Virus record (IMG/VR): IMGVR_UViG_3300027659_000257
Span: 1-21,125 of that record
DNA: 21,125 nt
Source: a virus
Direction: 5' to 3' (one strand)
Shown here: one piece after another, positions 7,733 to 18,062 of the stretch
How positions within the stretch are numbered: position 1 is the stretch's first letter
Layout of the letters: each line of letters starts with the position of its first letter
The notes under the pieces: generated by a model
Told to the model about the DNA's origin: nothing
Database searches by the model: none
What the model saw: only the letters and a program-made list of their open reading frames with translations
Translations under genes and position numbers: made by a program

Positions 7733-7832
7733 AGTCTCCCGTAAGTTCAAGCGCTCTTGTAATGACAAAGTGGCTAAATTGTTGGCCTTCTCTGACACGA
7801 TTAAGGATTGCTGTGGCTTCATGGTGTGTCAT
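7593..7832 (-). CDS. Small phage protein overprinted by the 7553-7732 gene
   Basis: The frame opens MTHHEATAILNRVREGQQFS then HFVITRALELTGDYEANG. The pattern (T..EA..IL.RVREG...P...IT.AL..TGD) is one I recall from short phage proteins of about 35-45 aa. Here no stop follows TGD. The frame runs on for 40 or so low-information residues (MDQALPQESARGRAGGSS and beyond) inside the next gene, giving a 140-bp overlap in two frames. The start overlaps the end of the Mom-like gene by 14 bp. There is no clear ribosome binding site. It is either a genuine overlapping gene with an extended tail or a shadow that mimics the family by chance. Confidence 0.45.
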   Translation of the reverse strand: MTHHEATAILNRVREGQQFSHFVITRALELTGDYEANGSIGMDQALPQESARGRAGGSSILVATDLVGHSQEAWASGCR

Positions 7833-8634
7833 GGCTGCGTTTTATGTAAGGTTTAACCAAATGCTCAATAGCCTTCAAATGTTTTTTTTGAGTGTTTTGA
7901 GTGCCTATAAACGCAAAATATCTGCCTTTGCTGTGTTGTTTAATTTTTTGCACAGTTGGAAAATATTTTTTAATGTTCTCAAATTGGGTATTACCACATA
8001 TAGCCCGAATACTTCGAGATGTCCAAATTTTGCCGTTGATTAGCCATCCATCACGGTCTAGCTTGCGGCTTTTGACTTTAGGGTTGCCATCACGCATTGA
8101 GCCAACGTAATGAAAACCACAGGCTTGGTAAATCGTGCCAATTTCGCCCGCAGCTTCATCAACCGTGGATGTGACAACTTCAAACTTTTTAGGCAGCATT
8201 TTCATGCTTTGGCGTATTAACTTGCTTGCGCTGTGCGGATGCGCCCAATGGACACAAGCACCACGGCTTAAAAGGATCATTTTTCCTTCATATCCGTATT
8301 TAGACCAATCAGCGCCAGCCAATCCTTTTTCACGGGTTATCTTGCCCAAATTCTCGGAATATTCAGGGCCATAACAAACTACTCCCGCACAGTAACCGTC
8401 AAAAAATATGCCATAGCAATGCCAAACTACTGCGGGCATACAACCCAACCATTCGTAATCTTTGATAATTTTTTCAGCCATTTGGTAAGTAACTTCCTTT
8501 ACCACGGCTTTTTTTATGTCAACGTCAATGTCTGACCACCAATCACCCAACAAATCAGAATCAAGGTTTTCTATACGCCTTTTTTCTCGAATTTGCTTTT
8601 GCCATGCAGTTGCAGTATCTAGCAATAAATTCAT
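7819..8634 (-). CDS. Mom-like GNAT-fold DNA modification protein
   Basis: A 271-aa protein whose first 180 residues resemble the phage Mu Mom family, GNAT-fold enzymes that modify adenine in phage DNA and so block restriction. Seen here: YEWLGCMPAVVWHCYGIFFD (60-79), AGVVCYGP (83-90), LLSRGACVHWAHPHSASKLI (121-140) and STVDEAAGEIGTIYQACGFH (156-175). The last is the GNAT-type substrate/cofactor region with a Tyr-x-x-x-Gly-Phe motif. Residues 185-271 form a second basic region (LINGKIWTSRSIRAICGN, then KGRYFAFIGT) that also occurs in phage Mom-like proteins and may bind DNA. It starts ATGA after the replication gene, so modification would begin with early leftward expression. Exact chemistry cannot be read from sequence. 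Confidence 0.78.
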   Translation of the reverse strand: MNLLLDTATAWQKQIREKRRIENLDSDLLGDWWSDIDVDIKKAVVKEVTYQMAEKIIKDYEWLGCMPAVVWHCYGIFFDGYCAGVVCYGPEYSENLGKITREKGLAGADWSKYGYEGKMILLSRGACVHWAHPHSASKLIRQSMKMLPKKFEVVTSTVDEAAGEIGTIYQACGFHYVGSMRDGNPKVKSRKLDRDGWLINGKIWTSRSIRAICGNTQFENIKKYFPTVQKIKQHSKGRYFAFIGTQNTQKKHLKAIEHLVKPYIKRSHDTP

Positions 8635-12125: not shown

Positions 12126-12286
12126 GCGGCAATCAGCCCGTTCACAGATTACGATCTTGTAATAAATGCGATGAAGTCAAGCCCCCCGAGGGCGGGGTTG
12201 ACATGGGGCATAAGTGGATTTGTCAATTGTGCTGGATTGCTAGAATTACAGGCAAACATTTGAGGCAAAACAATGACAAAAGATGA
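12101..12286 (+). CDS. Small zinc-finger protein, 61 aa
   Basis: The protein starts MAMYPIGLGGNQPVHRLRSC. Cys20-x2-Cys23 (CNKC) and Cys41-x2-Cys44 (CQLC) bracket KPPEGGVDMGHKWI, forming a four-cysteine zinc site of treble-clef or ribbon type. The KPPEGGV...KW.C..CW pattern is one I recall from small phage proteins of unknown function. It overlaps the winged-helix gene by 25 bp in another frame. Met3 (12107), with GAGA at better spacing, may be the true start. It overlaps the next gene by 14 bp. Confidence 0.7.
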   Translation: MAMYPIGLGGNQPVHRLRSCNKCDEVKPPEGGVDMGHKWICQLCWIARITGKHLRQNNDKR

Positions 12287-12467
12287 CTTGGTTGCATTGC
12301 TACGCATGACAGGCGTTCAAGAAGCCTCTATAGAGGCCGTATGCGCTGCTTATGACGCTGGTTGGAACGATGCCCTTGACGATTACGCAAAACGCTTAGA
12401 GGCGCTTTCTTTTGGCAAAGACACAATAGACAGTTTTAGCGTGTTTATCAAGTCAGCTAAGAAATAA
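12273..12467 (+). CDS. Last gene of the rightward operon, unknown, 64 aa
   Basis: An acidic helical protein: MTKDDLVALLRMTGVQEASI, EAVCAAYDAGWNDALDDYAK, then RLEALSFGKDTIDSFSVFIK and SAKK. AYDAGWNDALDDYAKRL recalls the AY..GW.DAL motif found in many short phage proteins encoded beside replication genes. No function is known to me. It overlaps the zinc-finger gene by 14 bp. Its 3' end overlaps the endolysin gene of the opposite strand by 15 bp with no terminator between them. Confidence 0.75.
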   Translation: MTKDDLVALLRMTGVQEASIEAVCAAYDAGWNDALDDYAKRLEALSFGKDTIDSFSVFIKSAKK

Positions 12468-12956
12468 AACCACTTCTGCTTTGCGTCTTTTGACAAGCCC
12501 TGAAATTTCTTTTCCACCCGCTTTTGTCCAACTCATAAAGGCTTCAGCAGCGCCCTCCCAATCACCACGGTTAACTTTCATGCGAATGGTTGACCTTTGG
12601 TAGTTGCCTAGACCTGCGTTGTACGCAAAAGATGTAACAGCGTCGAATTTGCTTTGATGACTAGCAAGATTAGGAGAAAGTCGAAGAACACCACGTTCAA
12701 AAGTATCGATGTCACTTTTGAACAAATTGACCAATTCATCTTTAGACCAAACACGGGCATCCCCTTCTTTTAGTTGATAGTCAGACCTTATCAATCCTGT
12801 GTAACCCTCTTTTCGCACGTTGGGTAGGTTTAATTGGTCTGGGTACATTGCGTGTCCCCATCCCACCGTCCAAATTGCGGCACTGCACCGATACGGTTTA
12901 GCCCTGTAGCCTTCAAAGAAGTGCATCAGATGTTCGCCTTTTTCGCTGATTTTCAT
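12453..12956 (-). CDS. Endolysin, GH24 (T4/P22-type) lysozyme
   Basis: A 167-aa muramidase that cuts cell-wall peptidoglycan. FFEGYRAKPYRCSAAIWTVG WGHA (13-35) is the GH24 active-site region. Glu15, Cys24 and Thr30 keep the E-8aa-D/C-5aa-T spacing of the catalytic triad, with Cys in place of the T4 lysozyme Asp20. SFAYNAGLGNYQRSTIRMKV (about 108-127) and the C-terminal SGLVKRRKAEVVLFL are further family signatures. There is no signal peptide or signal-anchor helix, so export should need a holin. It overlaps the upstream holin-like gene by 4 bp (ATGA). Confidence 0.95.
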   Translation of the reverse strand: MKISEKGEHLMHFFEGYRAKPYRCSAAIWTVGWGHAMYPDQLNLPNVRKEGYTGLIRSDYQLKEGDARVWSKDELVNLFKSDIDTFERGVLRLSPNLASHQSKFDAVTSFAYNAGLGNYQRSTIRMKVNRGDWEGAAEAFMSWTKAGGKEISGLVKRRKAEVVLFLS

Positions 12957-13456
12957 TTCTTAGCCCAACTTCTACTTCCGAACCAAAATCCTATAATTCC
13001 CCCCAACATGGCCATTTCATCAGAACTAAAAATAACGTCAGTAACCCTAATCAGATCATCCATGTTGTTGACCAAATTAGGTCTGCTGTAAACATAGTAG
13101 GCAATCCATGCGTTGATTGCACACAACTCAAAAATAAAGATGTAAGTAACAATAGGTCTTACAGTACCAACAAAGTTAACCACCCAAGTGCTTGCCTTTT
13201 CCATAATCTTTTCATCATGTTTTAAAGCAGCCTCTGTCATTTGGGCATCAGTCTGCATGGCAATTTGGTCTGTACGAATCTCCTCCATACGCTCTTGAGC
13301 TGCAAAGCCTTGAGCCATCATCTGTAGCTGTAACTCTACTTGAACCCTAGCCAAAGCAAGTTCATGCCTTTGGTCATCTTTGTTTTGGAAGTAATCAAGA
13401 AGTTTGGGTAAGCCTGAAATAAGCAAACCACCAAGGGTAGAAAATAAAGATAGCAT
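12953..13456 (-). CDS. Holin-like membrane protein (3TM / GTA-holin type)
   Basis: A 167-aa protein with an N-terminal hydrophobic stretch (MLSLFSTLGGLLISGLPKLL), a long coiled coil (about 25-90, rich in Gln, Met and Ala) and two C-terminal hydrophobic segments (VTYIFIFELCAINAWIAYYV and MAMLGGIIGFWFGSRSW). This order resembles the three-TM holin family first named for gene transfer agent release. Directly upstream of the endolysin (4-bp overlap), it is the best holin candidate, releasing the enzyme through the inner membrane. The long internal coiled coil is more than a minimal holin needs. Confidence 0.75.
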   Translation of the reverse strand: MLSLFSTLGGLLISGLPKLLDYFQNKDDQRHELALARVQVELQLQMMAQGFAAQERMEEIRTDQIAMQTDAQMTEAALKHDEKIMEKASTWVVNFVGTVRPIVTYIFIFELCAINAWIAYYVYSRPNLVNNMDDLIRVTDVIFSSDEMAMLGGIIGFWFGSRSWAKK

Positions 13457-13605
13457 TACAGTCCAATCATTCCAAGTAATTTATTAACAATCTTGTCCGA
13501 CAAGTCATCAGGCAAAAAGCGAAGCAGTCCAAGCACCCACCAAGCAATGCAAAGCCTGACAAAAACTTTGAGAAAAAGGTCAAATTGCTTTTGGTACTCA
13601 TTCAC
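13456..13605 (-). CDS. 49-aa membrane-associated protein with GTG start
   Basis: The product reads MNEYQKQFDLFLKVFVRLCI, AWWVLGLLRFLPDDLSDKIV, then NKLLGMIGL, with one hydrophobic segment (about residues 11-31) and an amphipathic C-terminal helix. The GTG start overlaps the upstream stop by 4 bp (GTGA), and the TAA shares one base with the holin ATG (TAATG). That exact fit makes it convincing although it lacks an ATG. A different frame of the same DNA, from ATG 13601, lacks this fit. It may be an accessory holin or antiholin; this is inferred only from size and place. Confidence 0.72.
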   Translation of the reverse strand: MNEYQKQFDLFLKVFVRLCIAWWVLGLLRFLPDDLSDKIVNKLLGMIGL

Positions 13606-14096
13606 CGCCCACACCTTGTTTTGGCGCACAAATTGGTTATTTCAGCAATACCCCATCCTATTGCGCCAATAAACATCACAATAATAACAACGGCAACCGC
13701 CCATTGCATTTGTTCGGCTTCAGCTTCTTTTTGTTTTTTTTCCTCAGCTTTGGCTTGCCTTGCTAAATGAGCATCTTCAATGTCCATTTGTTGCTGACGC
13801 TCTTTAATCTTTTGCCATACGTCTATGCGGCCAGATTGCATAAAAAGCATCTGTAATTCCGCTTCAAAGCGTTTGGCCTCATCCAAAGCCATTTCAATCT
13901 GTAACGCTGTTCCTAAGTTGGATTTATTGCCTGACCGTTTGGCCTCAACCATTGCCTTTGTTGCAACGCTTTTAGCGTCAAACATCTTGGCAATCATGGG
14001 GGTCAGACCCGCTAGATCGTTAGCGACCTTGCTTGCTTTTTTAACAAGCCCTATGGCGGTTTGTAGCCCTTCTAGCGCTGTTATGGGGTCTATCAT
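13602..14096 (-). CDS. Membrane-anchored coiled-coil protein, lysis cluster
   Basis: A 164-aa protein: N-terminal MIDPITALEGLQTAIGLVKK, then a helical region with LTPMIAKMFDAKSVATKAMV, a long charged coiled coil (about 70-130; KIKERQQQMDIEDAHLARQA, KAEEKKQKEAEAEQ) and a C-terminal transmembrane helix, WAVAVVIIVMFIGAIGWGIA. I recall proteins with this layout beside lysis genes in other environmental phages, without assigned function. It could be a spanin-like or tail-lysis connector, but no lipobox or outer-membrane part is visible in it. The frame is open to 14126. The ATG at 14096 has GGAG directly upstream and an ATGA overlap. Confidence 0.7.
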   Translation of the reverse strand: MIDPITALEGLQTAIGLVKKASKVANDLAGLTPMIAKMFDAKSVATKAMVEAKRSGNKSNLGTALQIEMALDEAKRFEAELQMLFMQSGRIDVWQKIKERQQQMDIEDAHLARQAKAEEKKQKEAEAEQMQWAVAVVIIVMFIGAIGWGIAEITNLCAKTRCGR

Positions 14097-14558: not shown

Positions 14559-15344
14559 TTAGACACCCATTTGTTTTCTTATTTTGGTTGCTGAAATAGC
14601 GTGAGTAGCATTGTCAAAAGATTCCTGTTCAATCTTATAACCTACATCTCTGCCATAGGTGATATTAACAATATTTGGTACAAGTTGAATTTCATATTGA
14701 CCCTGATACAAAGGGTCAAGATCACGCTTGATAAAGTCTTTGACTTGATTAGCCGCAAACGGGTTTGAGCCGTTCCACCCCTGACAGTCTCTGATCTGGA
14801 TAACCACTTGACCAGTTTTAGCTAATGCTCTCTCAAACAGCTTACGATGGCCTTCATGCCAAGGTTGCCATCTGCCAAGCATCTGAACAGTCTCTTTCTG
14901 CCAATCAAAGACAGGGCGTTGGCGGTCATCCAAGATGTGTGCGGCAATAAACTCACCCCACTTTTCAGCCTTTTGCTCGGTAATTCTAAAATCGTACTGT
15001 TCAGGCGCAACAAACACCTTGTTGGTATCTTCAAAGCGGCCTTGGTTAATGGTGTCAACCCAAACAGTCCAATCAGCTTTAAAGTTGTTGCGCATTTCAA
15101 CCAATGGGGCAACAAAGTCGCAGATTACATAATCTACATCGTAGCTGTCAGCAAGTTCACGCATCCGCAAGCTCTGACGAATACGGCCTTCATGCGAAAA
15201 ATCCCAATCGTTGTATTTCTTACGCACATCATCAGCGTTCAACCACATAACTGTTTTGCGGTTGCTTTGCAAGTGGTCAAGAATATGCTGTGCAAGGTAA
15301 GTTTTCCCAGCACCAGGCAAGCCCATGATTAGAATTCTTTTCAT
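14559..15344 (-). CDS. APS-kinase-like / nucleotidyltransferase fusion
   Basis: A 261-aa two-domain protein. Residues 1-150 form a P-loop kinase resembling adenylylsulfate kinase (CysC): Walker A GLPGAGKT (8-15), LNADDVRKKYNDWDFSHEGR (35-54, matching the D-x-x-R and FSxxxR substrate regions) and CDFVAPLVEMRNN (75-87, like FISPFRxxR). The usual Asn after FSxxxRxxN is not conserved. Residues 155-261 form a cytidylyl/adenylyltransferase: GRWQPWHEGH (157-166) with the HxGH site, GWNGSNPF (189-196), GRD (231-233) and ISATKIRKQMG (250-260). The order kinase then transferase is that of animal PAPS synthetase, but the second domain looks closer to NMN adenylyltransferases. It overlaps a sulfotransferase gene by 4 bp. 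Confidence 0.82.
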   Translation of the reverse strand: MKRILIMGLPGAGKTYLAQHILDHLQSNRKTVMWLNADDVRKKYNDWDFSHEGRIRQSLRMRELADSYDVDYVICDFVAPLVEMRNNFKADWTVWVDTINQGRFEDTNKVFVAPEQYDFRITEQKAEKWGEFIAAHILDDRQRPVFDWQKETVQMLGRWQPWHEGHRKLFERALAKTGQVVIQIRDCQGWNGSNPFAANQVKDFIKRDLDPLYQGQYEIQLVPNIVNITYGRDVGYKIEQESFDNATHAISATKIRKQMGV

Positions 15345-16162
15345 CCCTTAACCTTATAAAGTTGTTTCATTGCAAACTCAGGTGCGGGTGTGCGCCAAAA
15401 GTCTTTACCACTGTACTTTTCCCATACAGACTTAGGAAGAATAGATGGGCGTTCTACCCATGTTACTTCTTTCCTAACTGTGTGCAGACTTTTCATGTTC
15501 AAGGCTTTATCATAAACCTCGTTCTCATACTCAACATTCTTAAAGTCATGGTCAAAGTAAGGCTTGCCAATAAACCCATAAATCTCACGCATAACGCTCT
15601 CAGGCTTTTTGCATAAAGATTCATACTCCACCAACATAATCATGTCGGGGTTTAACAGTAAACCTTCTTCTAGGAAGTAATAAGGCTTGACCACTTGGCC
15701 TTCCTTCTTTACATCCATTAGGGCATCGCATCTGGTTGTGACTGTCTGCCGTGCTTCGTCATCTGTGAGGGTCGCACCATACAAAGAGTTCTTGGCAGCA
15801 ATACGCTCAAAGCTGTCCAGTATCCAAGGCAAATCACGCACACAGCAAATAATCTTTGTCTGTGGGTACAAGTCTTTCAATAAAGAAGTCTTAGAAGTCC
15901 AACCCCTGCTAGTGTCAAACACTACATTTGGCGTGACTGCTTTGTAGTAAGCGTTAATCAAGTCTTTAAGTATTTGCTTGCGTCTGTCTTCATCTACTAG
16001 GTGATTGCTCTCACTTCCCGTAATAACATTGATGGTCGATGCCACCAAGCCTTGTACGGGTGAGGATATATCTGCATAGAACTCAGGGTTTTGACGCAAG
16101 ATAGCCGAGAGCAGGGTTGAGCCTGACCTTGGTAAACCTGAGATAAAGTAAAACTCTTTCAT
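15341..16162 (-). CDS. PAPS-dependent sulfotransferase
   Basis: A 273-aa protein of the sulfotransferase family (Sulfotransferase_3-like). The 5'-phosphosulfate-binding loop is FISGLPRSGSTLLSAIL (6-22). The 3'-phosphate motif is IICCVRDLPWILDSFERI (104-121), with Arg109 and Ser117. FDTSRGWTSKTSLLKDLYPQ (82-101) precedes it. It should move sulfate from PAPS to a hydroxyl on sugar, lipid or protein. No signal peptide is present, so it acts in the cytoplasm. It lies between the adhesin genes and the kinase fusion with ATGA overlaps on both sides, so the pair probably makes and uses the sulfate donor and targets a phage fibre or cell-surface precursor. Confidence 0.88.
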   Translation of the reverse strand: MKEFYFISGLPRSGSTLLSAILRQNPEFYADISSPVQGLVASTINVITGSESNHLVDEDRRKQILKDLINAYYKAVTPNVVFDTSRGWTSKTSLLKDLYPQTKIICCVRDLPWILDSFERIAAKNSLYGATLTDDEARQTVTTRCDALMDVKKEGQVVKPYYFLEEGLLLNPDMIMLVEYESLCKKPESVMREIYGFIGKPYFDHDFKNVEYENEVYDKALNMKSLHTVRKEVTWVERPSILPKSVWEKYSGKDFWRTPAPEFAMKQLYKVKG

Positions 16163-16593
16163 GCTTGAGCAGTCTGGGCAACCCAGTTAACTGTAGCTTC
16201 GTCCCATTGATAGCGAACATTGCCACCGTTCATAACGGCATCAGCGGGTCTTGCTACGGGTGCGGCCCATGTCATTGTGTCCAAGTAACCAATCCAAGAT
16301 GGATAAGGTTTGCGAGCTTCATGCTCAATAACTTTGGCTGCATTAAATTCTGCTTCTGTTAAGACTTGCAAAACACCCGCAATGGTAGTGTCGGCATCGT
16401 CATCACAAGTGCCATAGTATTTAGGCGCACGTAGGTATGTGCCATCAGATGCTGTGGATACAGGCCATGTAGAACTGTCGTGCCATAAATGAGTCCAACC
16501 TTTGATGGCTGGCATGGATGGGCCTGTGCGCTGTGGCTCAGAAGTGCAGACTATTTTAGTTACTGCGTCTACTTCGGTAATGCAAATGTACAT
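16159..16593 (-). CDS. Tail-fibre-associated protein, unknown, 144 aa
   Basis: An acidic, Trp-rich protein (MYICITEVDAVTKIVCTSEP at the start; WTHLWHDSSTWPVSTASDGT; YPSWIGYLDTMTWAAPVARP; then NGGNVRYQWDEATVNWV). It has no enzyme motif. It lies just downstream of the twin adhesins, where fibre-assembly chaperones or fibre tips are often encoded, and the W-x-W-rich C-terminal part fits either. I cannot choose between them. AAGGAG precedes its ATG, and its end overlaps the sulfotransferase start by 4 bp. Confidence 0.6.
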   Translation of the reverse strand: MYICITEVDAVTKIVCTSEPQRTGPSMPAIKGWTHLWHDSSTWPVSTASDGTYLRAPKYYGTCDDDADTTIAGVLQVLTEAEFNAAKVIEHEARKPYPSWIGYLDTMTWAAPVARPADAVMNGGNVRYQWDEATVNWVAQTAQA

Positions 16594-16613: not shown

Positions 16614-17333
16614 TTAAACTGCAACTCTGCGGATGGCACGGACATGGGTTGAATAGTTTTTAAACTTGAAGTAATACTGGTATCCATTACTAAAGTCCTG
16701 ACTCCATGCGTAAACCGCAGAAAACTCAGTACTAGACCAGTAAGTGACACCCGTAAATTTTTCTGCGCCTGTACTTCTAAAATCGGTAGCTGACGTTTGC
16801 GATGGTGTTCCAGCCGTGTAATTACTTGCTCTTGCAGGGACTGCATTTGCATTTATGCCGTATGATGTATTGTTACTTGTTGTCGTTGGTTTCAAGTTGT
16901 AGTAACACACTTCCAACTCGTTTTTCGCTGGCATATACCAATCACTAAACCCACCAATGGTCAAACCTTCACAGAACTGTGCGGCAGGATGGCTTGCATT
17001 ATTCATCGCTGTACTATTAGCAGGCCCGTCAATTACTGATGTTGTACCAGCAGTTGTTGTATTAGTTGTTTTCCATTGTTTACTTGTTTGTTGTGCGGAT
17101 GCTACTGGCCCAACTACTAAGTTGTAATCAGCAATGCTATTACCAGCAGTTGAAATTTGCCCTGCAAAAAAGCCGCCACCAAAAGCCTGACCAATAACTA
17201 ATGGAGGACTGGGCCATAACCCTTGCTTCTGTAACTGCATAGCTTGGTCAATAGTCCACATCCCACTAGCCGCAGAACTTGTTGGTGCTACAGGGCTTTT
17301 AGTAATAAACCCGCCTGGATATTTTTGGCTCAT
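16614..17333 (-). CDS. DUF1566/Lcl-domain tail adhesin, copy A
   Basis: A 239-aa probable receptor-binding protein. The N-terminal half is Gly/Ser/Thr-rich (SAASGMWTIDQAMQLQKQG, PPLVIGQAFGGGFFAGQI). The C-terminal half is a DUF1566 (Lcl C-terminal) domain, a C-type-lectin-like fold: FCEGLTIGGFSDWYMPAKNE (120-139), LEVCYYNLKP, then YWSSTEFSAVYAWSQDFSNG and the ending VRAIRRVAV. It has the same length as the next gene upstream (17343-18062) and aligns with it almost end to end, so the two arose by duplication. AAAGGA precedes the ATG. The last 45 residues look like the variable regions of diversity-generating retroelement targets, but no reverse transcriptase is in the window. Confidence 0.8.
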   Translation of the reverse strand: MSQKYPGGFITKSPVAPTSSAASGMWTIDQAMQLQKQGLWPSPPLVIGQAFGGGFFAGQISTAGNSIADYNLVVGPVASAQQTSKQWKTTNTTTAGTTSVIDGPANSTAMNNASHPAAQFCEGLTIGGFSDWYMPAKNELEVCYYNLKPTTTSNNTSYGINANAVPARASNYTAGTPSQTSATDFRSTGAEKFTGVTYWSSTEFSAVYAWSQDFSNGYQYYFKFKNYSTHVRAIRRVAV

Positions 17334-17342
17334 GGTTGTCCT

Positions 17343-18062
17343 TTAAACTGCAACTCTGCGGATGGCTCGGACACGATATGCAGAATTCTTATTAAAGTTG
17401 TAGTTTTGACTGCCGTTGCCTAAATACTGTGACCATCCTTGTGTTGCAGATTTTTCGGTACTAGTCCAATAAAGTTGGTCTGTAAAAAATTCTGTTCCAC
17501 TAATATTTATAAAGGCCGAAACAGTAGTTTGTGCTGGGTTTCCAGAAGTATAGTTACTTGCTCTGGCAGGGACAGCGTTAGCGTTTATTCCTGAAGAAAT
17601 ATCGTTAGCTGTTGTTGTTGGTTTTAGGTTGTAATAACAAACTTCTAGTTCGTTTTTAGCGGGCATATACCAATCTGAATAACCGCCAATAGTTAACCCT
17701 TCACAAAACTGAGCCGCTGGATGACTTGCATCGTTCATTGATGCACTATTAGCAGGGCCATCAATGACTGAAGTTGCGCCAGCATCGCTTGTGTTTGAGG
17801 TTTTAAATTGCAACGCAGTGCTGGCAAATGCAGATGCTTTAGGCCCAACAACAAGGTTGTGTGTGGCAACACCGCTAACCCCAATTTGCCCTGCATAAAA
17901 ACCACCAGCGTAGGCTTGACCAATGACAAGAGGTATCCCTGTCCAATTTCCAGCAGCTAACGCTTGTAACTGTTGTGGAAGTGTCCATACCCCACTAGCA
18001 GCACTAGTAGAAGTTGTTGGGGCAGTAGCGGAAATTACACCGCCTTTGTATCGCATGGACAT
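17343..18062 (-). CDS. DUF1566/Lcl-domain tail adhesin, copy B
   Basis: A 239-aa paralogue of copy A. The shared core includes SVIDGPANS, HPAAQFCEGLTIGG, SDWYMPAKNELEVCYYNLKP and GINANAVPARASNYT. The region just before the C-terminus differs (YWTSTEKSATQGWSQYLGNG against YWSSTEFSAVYAWSQDFSNG in copy A), and both end VRAIRRVAV. Codons differ at many silent positions in the core, so the copies are old and kept by selection on the protein. The last 24 nt including the stop are identical in the two genes. AAGGA precedes the ATG. Two fibres could give a two-receptor host range or a mixed trimer. Confidence 0.8.
   Translation of the reverse strand: MSMRYKGGVISATAPTTSTSAASGVWTLPQQLQALAAGNWTGIPLVIGQAYAGGFYAGQIGVSGVATHNLVVGPKASAFASTALQFKTSNTSDAGATSVIDGPANSASMNDASHPAAQFCEGLTIGGYSDWYMPAKNELEVCYYNLKPTTTANDISSGINANAVPARASNYTSGNPAQTTVSAFINISGTEFFTDQLYWTSTEKSATQGWSQYLGNGSQNYNFNKNSAYRVRAIRRVAV

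Follow-up and report, generated by a model that had tools for sequence, protein, structure and literature searches.

A virus record of 21,125 nt (IMGVR_UViG_3300027659_000257), analysed over its whole length and called the window here, carries a gene for a protein of 261 residues in which a kinase is followed by a nucleotidyltransferase (NT), next to a sulfotransferase (ST) gene. The question raised by this locus is whether so small a protein makes PAPS, the sulfate donor, from ATP and sulfate, as an earlier reading made from the sequence alone had proposed with NAD salvage as the alternative. The evidence described below favours, with a rough probability of 0.6, a bifunctional PAPS synthetase of minimal size that supplies the co-encoded ST and has a new sulfurylase derived from NadM. 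In the open-access literature neither a described phage PAPS synthetase nor this NT domain was found, and a published account calls the role of phage sulfotransferases unclear (PMC10580990).

The fusion gene in the window

The predicted order of a P-loop kinase and then an HxGH nucleotidyltransferase in 261 residues is borne out by GLPGAGKT at residues 8-15 and GRWQPWHEGH at residues 157-166 (Table 1). Judged by its conservation, the open reading frame is confirmed as real and not a chance one: all 51 viral homologues compared, a diverse set reaching down to ~38% identity, keep the motif residues unchanged, relatives of the fusion are encoded by 597 of the ~600 viral stretches picked up by pattern scans, and the protein matches phrog_10255 over residues 1-260 (3.5e-50). 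The ST gene does overlap the fusion gene, by 4 nt, its TGA stop lying inside the ATGA (15341-15344) that starts the fusion gene. The ST matches Pfam Sulfotransfer_3 (PF13469; 3.3e-17, 63.9 bits against a cut-off of 27) and, weakly, the protein-tyrosine sulfotransferases (0.005), and its GLPRSGSTLL and VRDLPWILDSF stretches look like the 5'- and 3'-phosphate binding motifs, respectively.

Table 1. Features of the cassette and its surroundings, in window coordinates
Feature	Position	Strand	Basis or remark
Kinase-nucleotidyltransferase (NT) fusion gene, candidate PAPS synthetase	14559..15344	-	261 aa, ATG at 15344
APS-kinase-type domain, residues 1-140	14925..15344	-	Pfam PF01583, PDB profile, AF2 + Foldseek
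P-loop GLPGAGKT, residues 8-15	15300..15323	-	sequence; G8, G13, K14 invariant
APS-pocket residues D38, R41, F49, R54	15183..15233	-	identical 51/51; contacts per PMC4373884
Mini HIGH-type NT domain, modelled residues 144-261, core ~150-261	14562..14915	-	profile, AF2, Foldseek
GRWQPWHEGH nucleotide-binding motif, residues 157-166	14847..14876	-	invariant positions in 64/64
GRDVGY family-specific loop, residues 231-236; candidate oxyanion loop	14637..14654	-	conservation; role inferred
R185, candidate oxyanion contact	14790..14792	-	64/64 + haloarchaea; role inferred
ISATKIR second nucleotide-binding motif, residues 250-256	14577..14597	-	conservation
ATGA overlap, ST stop / fusion start	15341..15344	-	sequence
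Sulfotransferase (ST), 273 aa, PF13469	15341..16162	-	Pfam; motifs from sequence
144-aa protein between tail genes and cassette	16159..16593	-	phrog_7759, unknown
Lcl_C (DUF1566-type) tail-associated protein, copy 1	16614..17333	-	Pfam, PHROG
Lcl_C (DUF1566-type) tail-associated protein, copy 2	17343..18062	-	Pfam, PHROG
Phage lysozyme (lysis-type gene)	12453-12956		

The cassette follows tail-type genes, including two of the Lcl_C/DUF1566 type, and precedes lysis-type genes, so it is probably located in a late region. From its position, the 144-aa protein is possibly a tail fibre assembly protein. The two Lcl_C/DUF1566 copies stand in tandem and are 64% identical, with a divergent C-terminal stretch; DUF1566-type folds are often the variable proteins of diversity-generating retroelements, and no reverse transcriptase was recognised within the window. 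In addition, a Mom-family protein (7822-8634, minus strand; PF25680, 2e-18) suggests that this phage may have a DNA modification like that of Mu Mom.

The kinase and nucleotidyltransferase domains

The N-terminal domain had been called APS-kinase-like, and this is borne out. Pfam APS_kinase (PF01583) matches it at 1.3e-9 (38.7 bits, cut-off 21.1), the best matches of a PDB profile search with 51 viral homologues are all APS kinases (2yvu first, 7e-16), and the AlphaFold2 model (mean pLDDT 91) gives nearly exclusively APS kinases as best Foldseek matches, some of them APS-bound. In Mycobacterium tuberculosis CysC the contacts to APS and phosphate are Asp480, Arg483, Phe492, Arg497 and Lys456 (PMC4373884); their equivalents D38, R41, F49, R54 and K14 are identical in 51/51 viral sequences and also in the Microvirga and haloarchaeal relatives. 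The outcome named beforehand as contrary, that is, a kinase matching nicotinamide riboside kinases and no APS pocket, did not occur. Compared with CysC (PF01583), the fold, the P-loop, DxxR, the F and R pocket residues and the F-x-x-P loop are common to both, whereas the fusion kinase stays below the NCBIfam apsK equivalog cut-off (27.6 against 138.7 bits) and its lid is 11-12 residues shorter in the phage and SAR11 forms, which lack the full lid with equivalents of Arg559, Lys562 and Phe576. This trimmed lid, which is complete in the haloarchaeal forms, speaks against a PAPS synthetase. On sequence and model grounds there is nevertheless a strong case for a domain of the APS-kinase type, and homology, pocket residues and genomic context together argue strongly that PAPS for the ST comes from the kinase.

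The NT domain carries its motifs, GRWQPWHEGH, NPF, YGRDVGY and ISATKIR, in residues ~150-261, and its Pfam match to CTP_transf_like (4.4e-4) is just below the cut-off (20.9 vs 21.0 bits). P161, H163 and H166 of the expected PxHxxH at 161-166 are present. This motif had been thought to fit both ATP sulfurylases and NMN adenylyltransferases, and GRWQPWHEGH to be closest to the latter. The second family was indeed the nearest in the profile search, with NadM-type enzymes at 3e-10; the PDB profile matches at E<=10 include no ATP sulfurylase and PF01747 is absent from the best 25 of 34 Pfam families at E<=1. The main NadM match covers the first ~80-85 of 118 profile positions and its C-terminal stretch is marginal at most, a full-length NadM domain with the NMN-side C-terminal half was not found, and the fusion misses the TIGR01527 (NadM) cut-off by 28.4 against 181.2 bits. 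The GRxQPxHxGH motif, the NPF segment and the ISxTxIR motif are common to NadM-type enzymes and the NT domain, but in the latter the distance from NPF to ISxT is roughly halved, the NMN-side segment is absent, R185 and YGRxVGY are specific to the family, and the genomic context is one of sulfation.

Structure prediction, which had been proposed for both domains, pointed to APS kinases for the kinase and gave generic superfamily matches for the NT. Because the kinase dominates the Foldseek search of the whole model, the NT was modelled alone (AF2 pLDDT 89). Its matches belong to the HIGH superfamily in general (PPAT, NMNAT, pantothenate synthetase, ATP sulfurylase), none below 3e-3, and ATP sulfurylase comes only at rank 26 with E=0.025, which is against a PAPS synthetase. 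The QxRN loop of ATP sulfurylase contacts sulfate (PMC3779200); in the NT domain these contacts are absent and G157-R158-W159-Q160 is in their place. With neither a Sat-family model match nor QxRN, the protein cannot be classed by descent with the Sat-family PAPS synthetases, and in terms of family membership the NT domain belongs neither to the Sat-family sulfurylases nor to the NadM enzymes.

A number of NT positions are invariant among 64 sequences. H163-x-x-H166, the HxxH common to the whole superfamily, is kept in 64/64, as are G157, R158, Q160, P161, G165, R185, R232 and Y236, R185 also in haloarchaea. In GRDVGY, G231, R232, V234, G235 and Y236 are invariant and D233 is variable, so that, compared by sequence alone with the GRD loop of Sat, an invariant G231-R232 is followed by a variable third residue and then by VGY, not HAG. 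R185 and the GRxVGY loop are specific to the family and are candidate oxyanion contacts.

Distribution and genomic context

Among 80 viral ST relatives of the window's lineage, the kinase directly follows the ST in 77, with the identical gene overlap in 54 of these loci; two of the other three lie at a contig edge and one (L519) has a truncated kinase only. The partner is kinase plus NT in 52 loci and kinase only in 17 (L519 included). The kinase-only partners have a kinase identity of ~46-54%, although the identity of their ST is 90-94%; the NT is thus an optional part of a partner whose constant element is the kinase, and phages of one lineage have swapped the one partner type for the other. 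Kinase-only loci beside a near-identical ST are L476, L479, L481-L483, L485, L490, L492-L494, L496, L508, L509 and L524-L526. In a control of 22 records with a related terminase, one had both ST and kinase and 21 had neither. Relatives of this ST occur in only 10 of 50,697 phage records, so their co-occurrence with the kinase by chance is unlikely. Furthermore, the NT never occurs without the kinase in the phage and plasmid collections.

Beyond this lineage, a recognisable ST is found at ~14 of 36 kinase-or-fusion clusters (70% identity). Nucleotide-sugar epimerases, 2OG oxygenases and a glycosyltransferase are also encoded nearby, consistent with work on surface glycans. A PF13469 ST is absent from five complete genomes carrying the fusion, namely four Casjensviridae and Stenotrophomonas phage DLP_6; these phages may use host or unrecognised STs, or the enzyme may do something else in them. 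In the Casjensviridae (L005, L007, L008, L009) the kinase-NT gene shares its start with an overlapping NADAR gene, and a gene annotated as cysteine dioxygenase and MazG lie upstream; the NADAR neighbour is confined to this lineage. A plasmid-borne prophage-like region of Rhodoferax contains tail fibre assembly, ST and kinase-only genes.

Cellular relatives occur in SAR11 and SAR86, where kinase and NT are either fused or encoded by two adjacent or overlapping genes. SAR11 is described as having neither cysDNC nor sat but as having AprBA, an enzyme able to form APS out of sulfite and AMP (PMC5069961), so that AprBA could be the main alternative source of APS in SAR11. Twenty carrier genomes, mostly SAR11/SAR86 and one Rhodospirillaceae, were examined, the SAR11 genomes being mostly incomplete. 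None of the 20 has Sat, 15 have a Sulfotransfer_3 protein, and 18 have a NadD match (15 over the cut-off), so most of them do not depend on the NT for NAD. A CysD match was found in one carrier, the Rhodospirillaceae genome, together with an intact NT, which is against a PAPS synthetase. Among 147 Pelagibacteraceae genomes, NT is present in 80, ST in 64, Sat in 5 and CysD in 8 plus one marginal case. NT and ST occur together in 44 of the 147 (p=0.0018), and NT tends to be absent where CysD is present (1/8 with both, p=0.017), both values being uncorrected for phylogeny and incompleteness. Also opposed to a PAPS synthetase are the joint presence of Sat and NT in four SAR11 genomes and the place of the split kinase/NT pairs of SAR11, which lie near genes of the glycine-betaine or ergothioneine type and not near STs. 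In one such SAR11 locus (L268), two large secreted-looking repeat proteins are encoded between the kinase and NT genes, and the neighbours look, by their sequence, like ergothioneine biosynthesis genes (EgtB/EgtD-like).

In the nodulation cluster of Microvirga lotononidis (L003) the order is nodI-nodJ-ST-[fusion]-cysD(nodP)-cysN(nodQ). The NodQ (12181-13770 of this locus) matches the CysN part only, at positions 9-441 of a bifunctional model with 632 positions, and lacks an APS-kinase (CysC) domain; its C-terminal end is a DUF2061 stretch. Therefore, the kinase of the fusion most likely supplies the APS-kinase function in Microvirga. This kinase is intact and the NT domain is changed at seven residues that are conserved in the other relatives (G165S, P195R, Y230H, R232L, V234L, I250V, R256Q), a decay as expected if NodPQ makes it redundant. 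A neighbouring PF01507 match, at first look a PAPS reductase, proved to be CysD/NodP, which a simple SGGKDS motif search did not recover. On haloarchaeal plasmids the fusion is annotated as cysC and lies immediately downstream of an ST. Compared with NodPQ and CysDN-CysC, the predicted product, PAPS for an ST, is the same, and in Microvirga the fusion takes the place of the missing APS-kinase domain of NodQ; the fusion differs in having its predicted sulfurylase chemistry in a HIGH-type domain without a GTPase.

A possible minimal PAPS synthetase

If the protein is a minimal PAPS synthetase, its C-terminal NadM-like domain of the HIGH superfamily would transfer AMP from ATP to sulfate, giving APS and PPi, and its N-terminal domain would phosphorylate the 3'-OH of APS to PAPS, the step with strong support. 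The ST would then sulfate a target with PAPS as donor; from the tail-gene and glycan-gene neighbours, plausible targets are a tail-fibre protein and a surface glycan of the host. The second domain would be a sulfurylase in its own right and no cut-down Sat or CysDN, and the NT would be kept where there is no other source of APS and be lost or decay where one exists.

It is unlikely that the protein works in vivo as an APS kinase only, with a non-catalytic NT for APS/ATP binding, scaffolding or regulation and with APS from host CysDN or SAR11 AprBA. Kinase-only versions in phages and prophages and the formation of APS from sulfite and AMP by AprBA (PMC5069961) would agree with this, but the catalytic-type HxGH, R158 and ISxTxxR are invariant in essentially all of the 64 sequences, which is more than a mere binding domain would need, the NT often has a gene of its own next to the kinase gene in SAR11 and SAR86, and it decays where NodPQ is present.

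Similarly unlikely is a scheme in which the NT adenylylates or cytidylylates another oxyanion or a phosphorylated compound, the kinase acts at the 3'-OH of the nucleotide, and the supposed ST moves the resulting group, in a logic comparable to that of the CDP-phosphoramidate kinase of Campylobacter. An NT pocket unlike that of all known sulfurylases and the presence of the fusion in phages without a recognised ST would suit such chemistry; the interchange of kinase-only versions and fusion beside near-identical STs, and the place of the fusion with NodP/NodQ, point instead to ordinary PAPS.

The least probable is NAD salvage during infection, with the NT as NMN adenylyltransferase and the kinase phosphorylating a nicotinamide nucleoside: it keeps the NadM-like GRWQPWHEGH and first ~80 residues and the overlapping NADAR gene, but the similarity to NadM ends in mid-domain before a remainder about half as long, the kinase matches no riboside kinase, NadD is present in most SAR11 carriers, the recurrent ST and nod/CysD neighbours make no sense for NAD, and NADAR is a neighbour in one lineage only.

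The distribution of the NT, its coupling to the ST and the loss or decay of the domain suggest indirectly, and with moderate confidence, that it makes APS; by function, as judged from genomic context, the most likely role of the whole protein is that of a PAPS synthetase. Animal PAPSS1/2 likewise carry an APS kinase and then a HIGH-superfamily adenylyltransferase in one chain and convert ATP and sulfate to PAPS, the same overall reaction as predicted here. Unlike PAPSS1/2 (~620 aa), the fusion has only 261 residues, a trimmed kinase lid, a C-terminal domain outside the Sat family (no PF01747, no QxRN) and no PUA-like domain. The chances are about even that the NT represents a new ATP sulfurylase family of ~110 aa, derived from NadM-like enzymes and spread by phages, distinct from Sat within the superfamily and different in kind from CysDN, which would be the missing sulfate activator of SAR11, SAR86 and some haloarchaea.

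If this is true, the known ATP sulfurylases would be joined by a third type and the PAPS synthetases by a very small one, and the source of the donor for phage and SAR11 sulfotransferases would be explained. Phages would bring a complete sulfation module, with donor synthesis and transfer, beside their tail genes. Moreover, relatives of the fusion are present in very abundant ocean bacteria previously thought unable to activate sulfate, and such organisms would gain a route to PAPS and to sulfated surface molecules.
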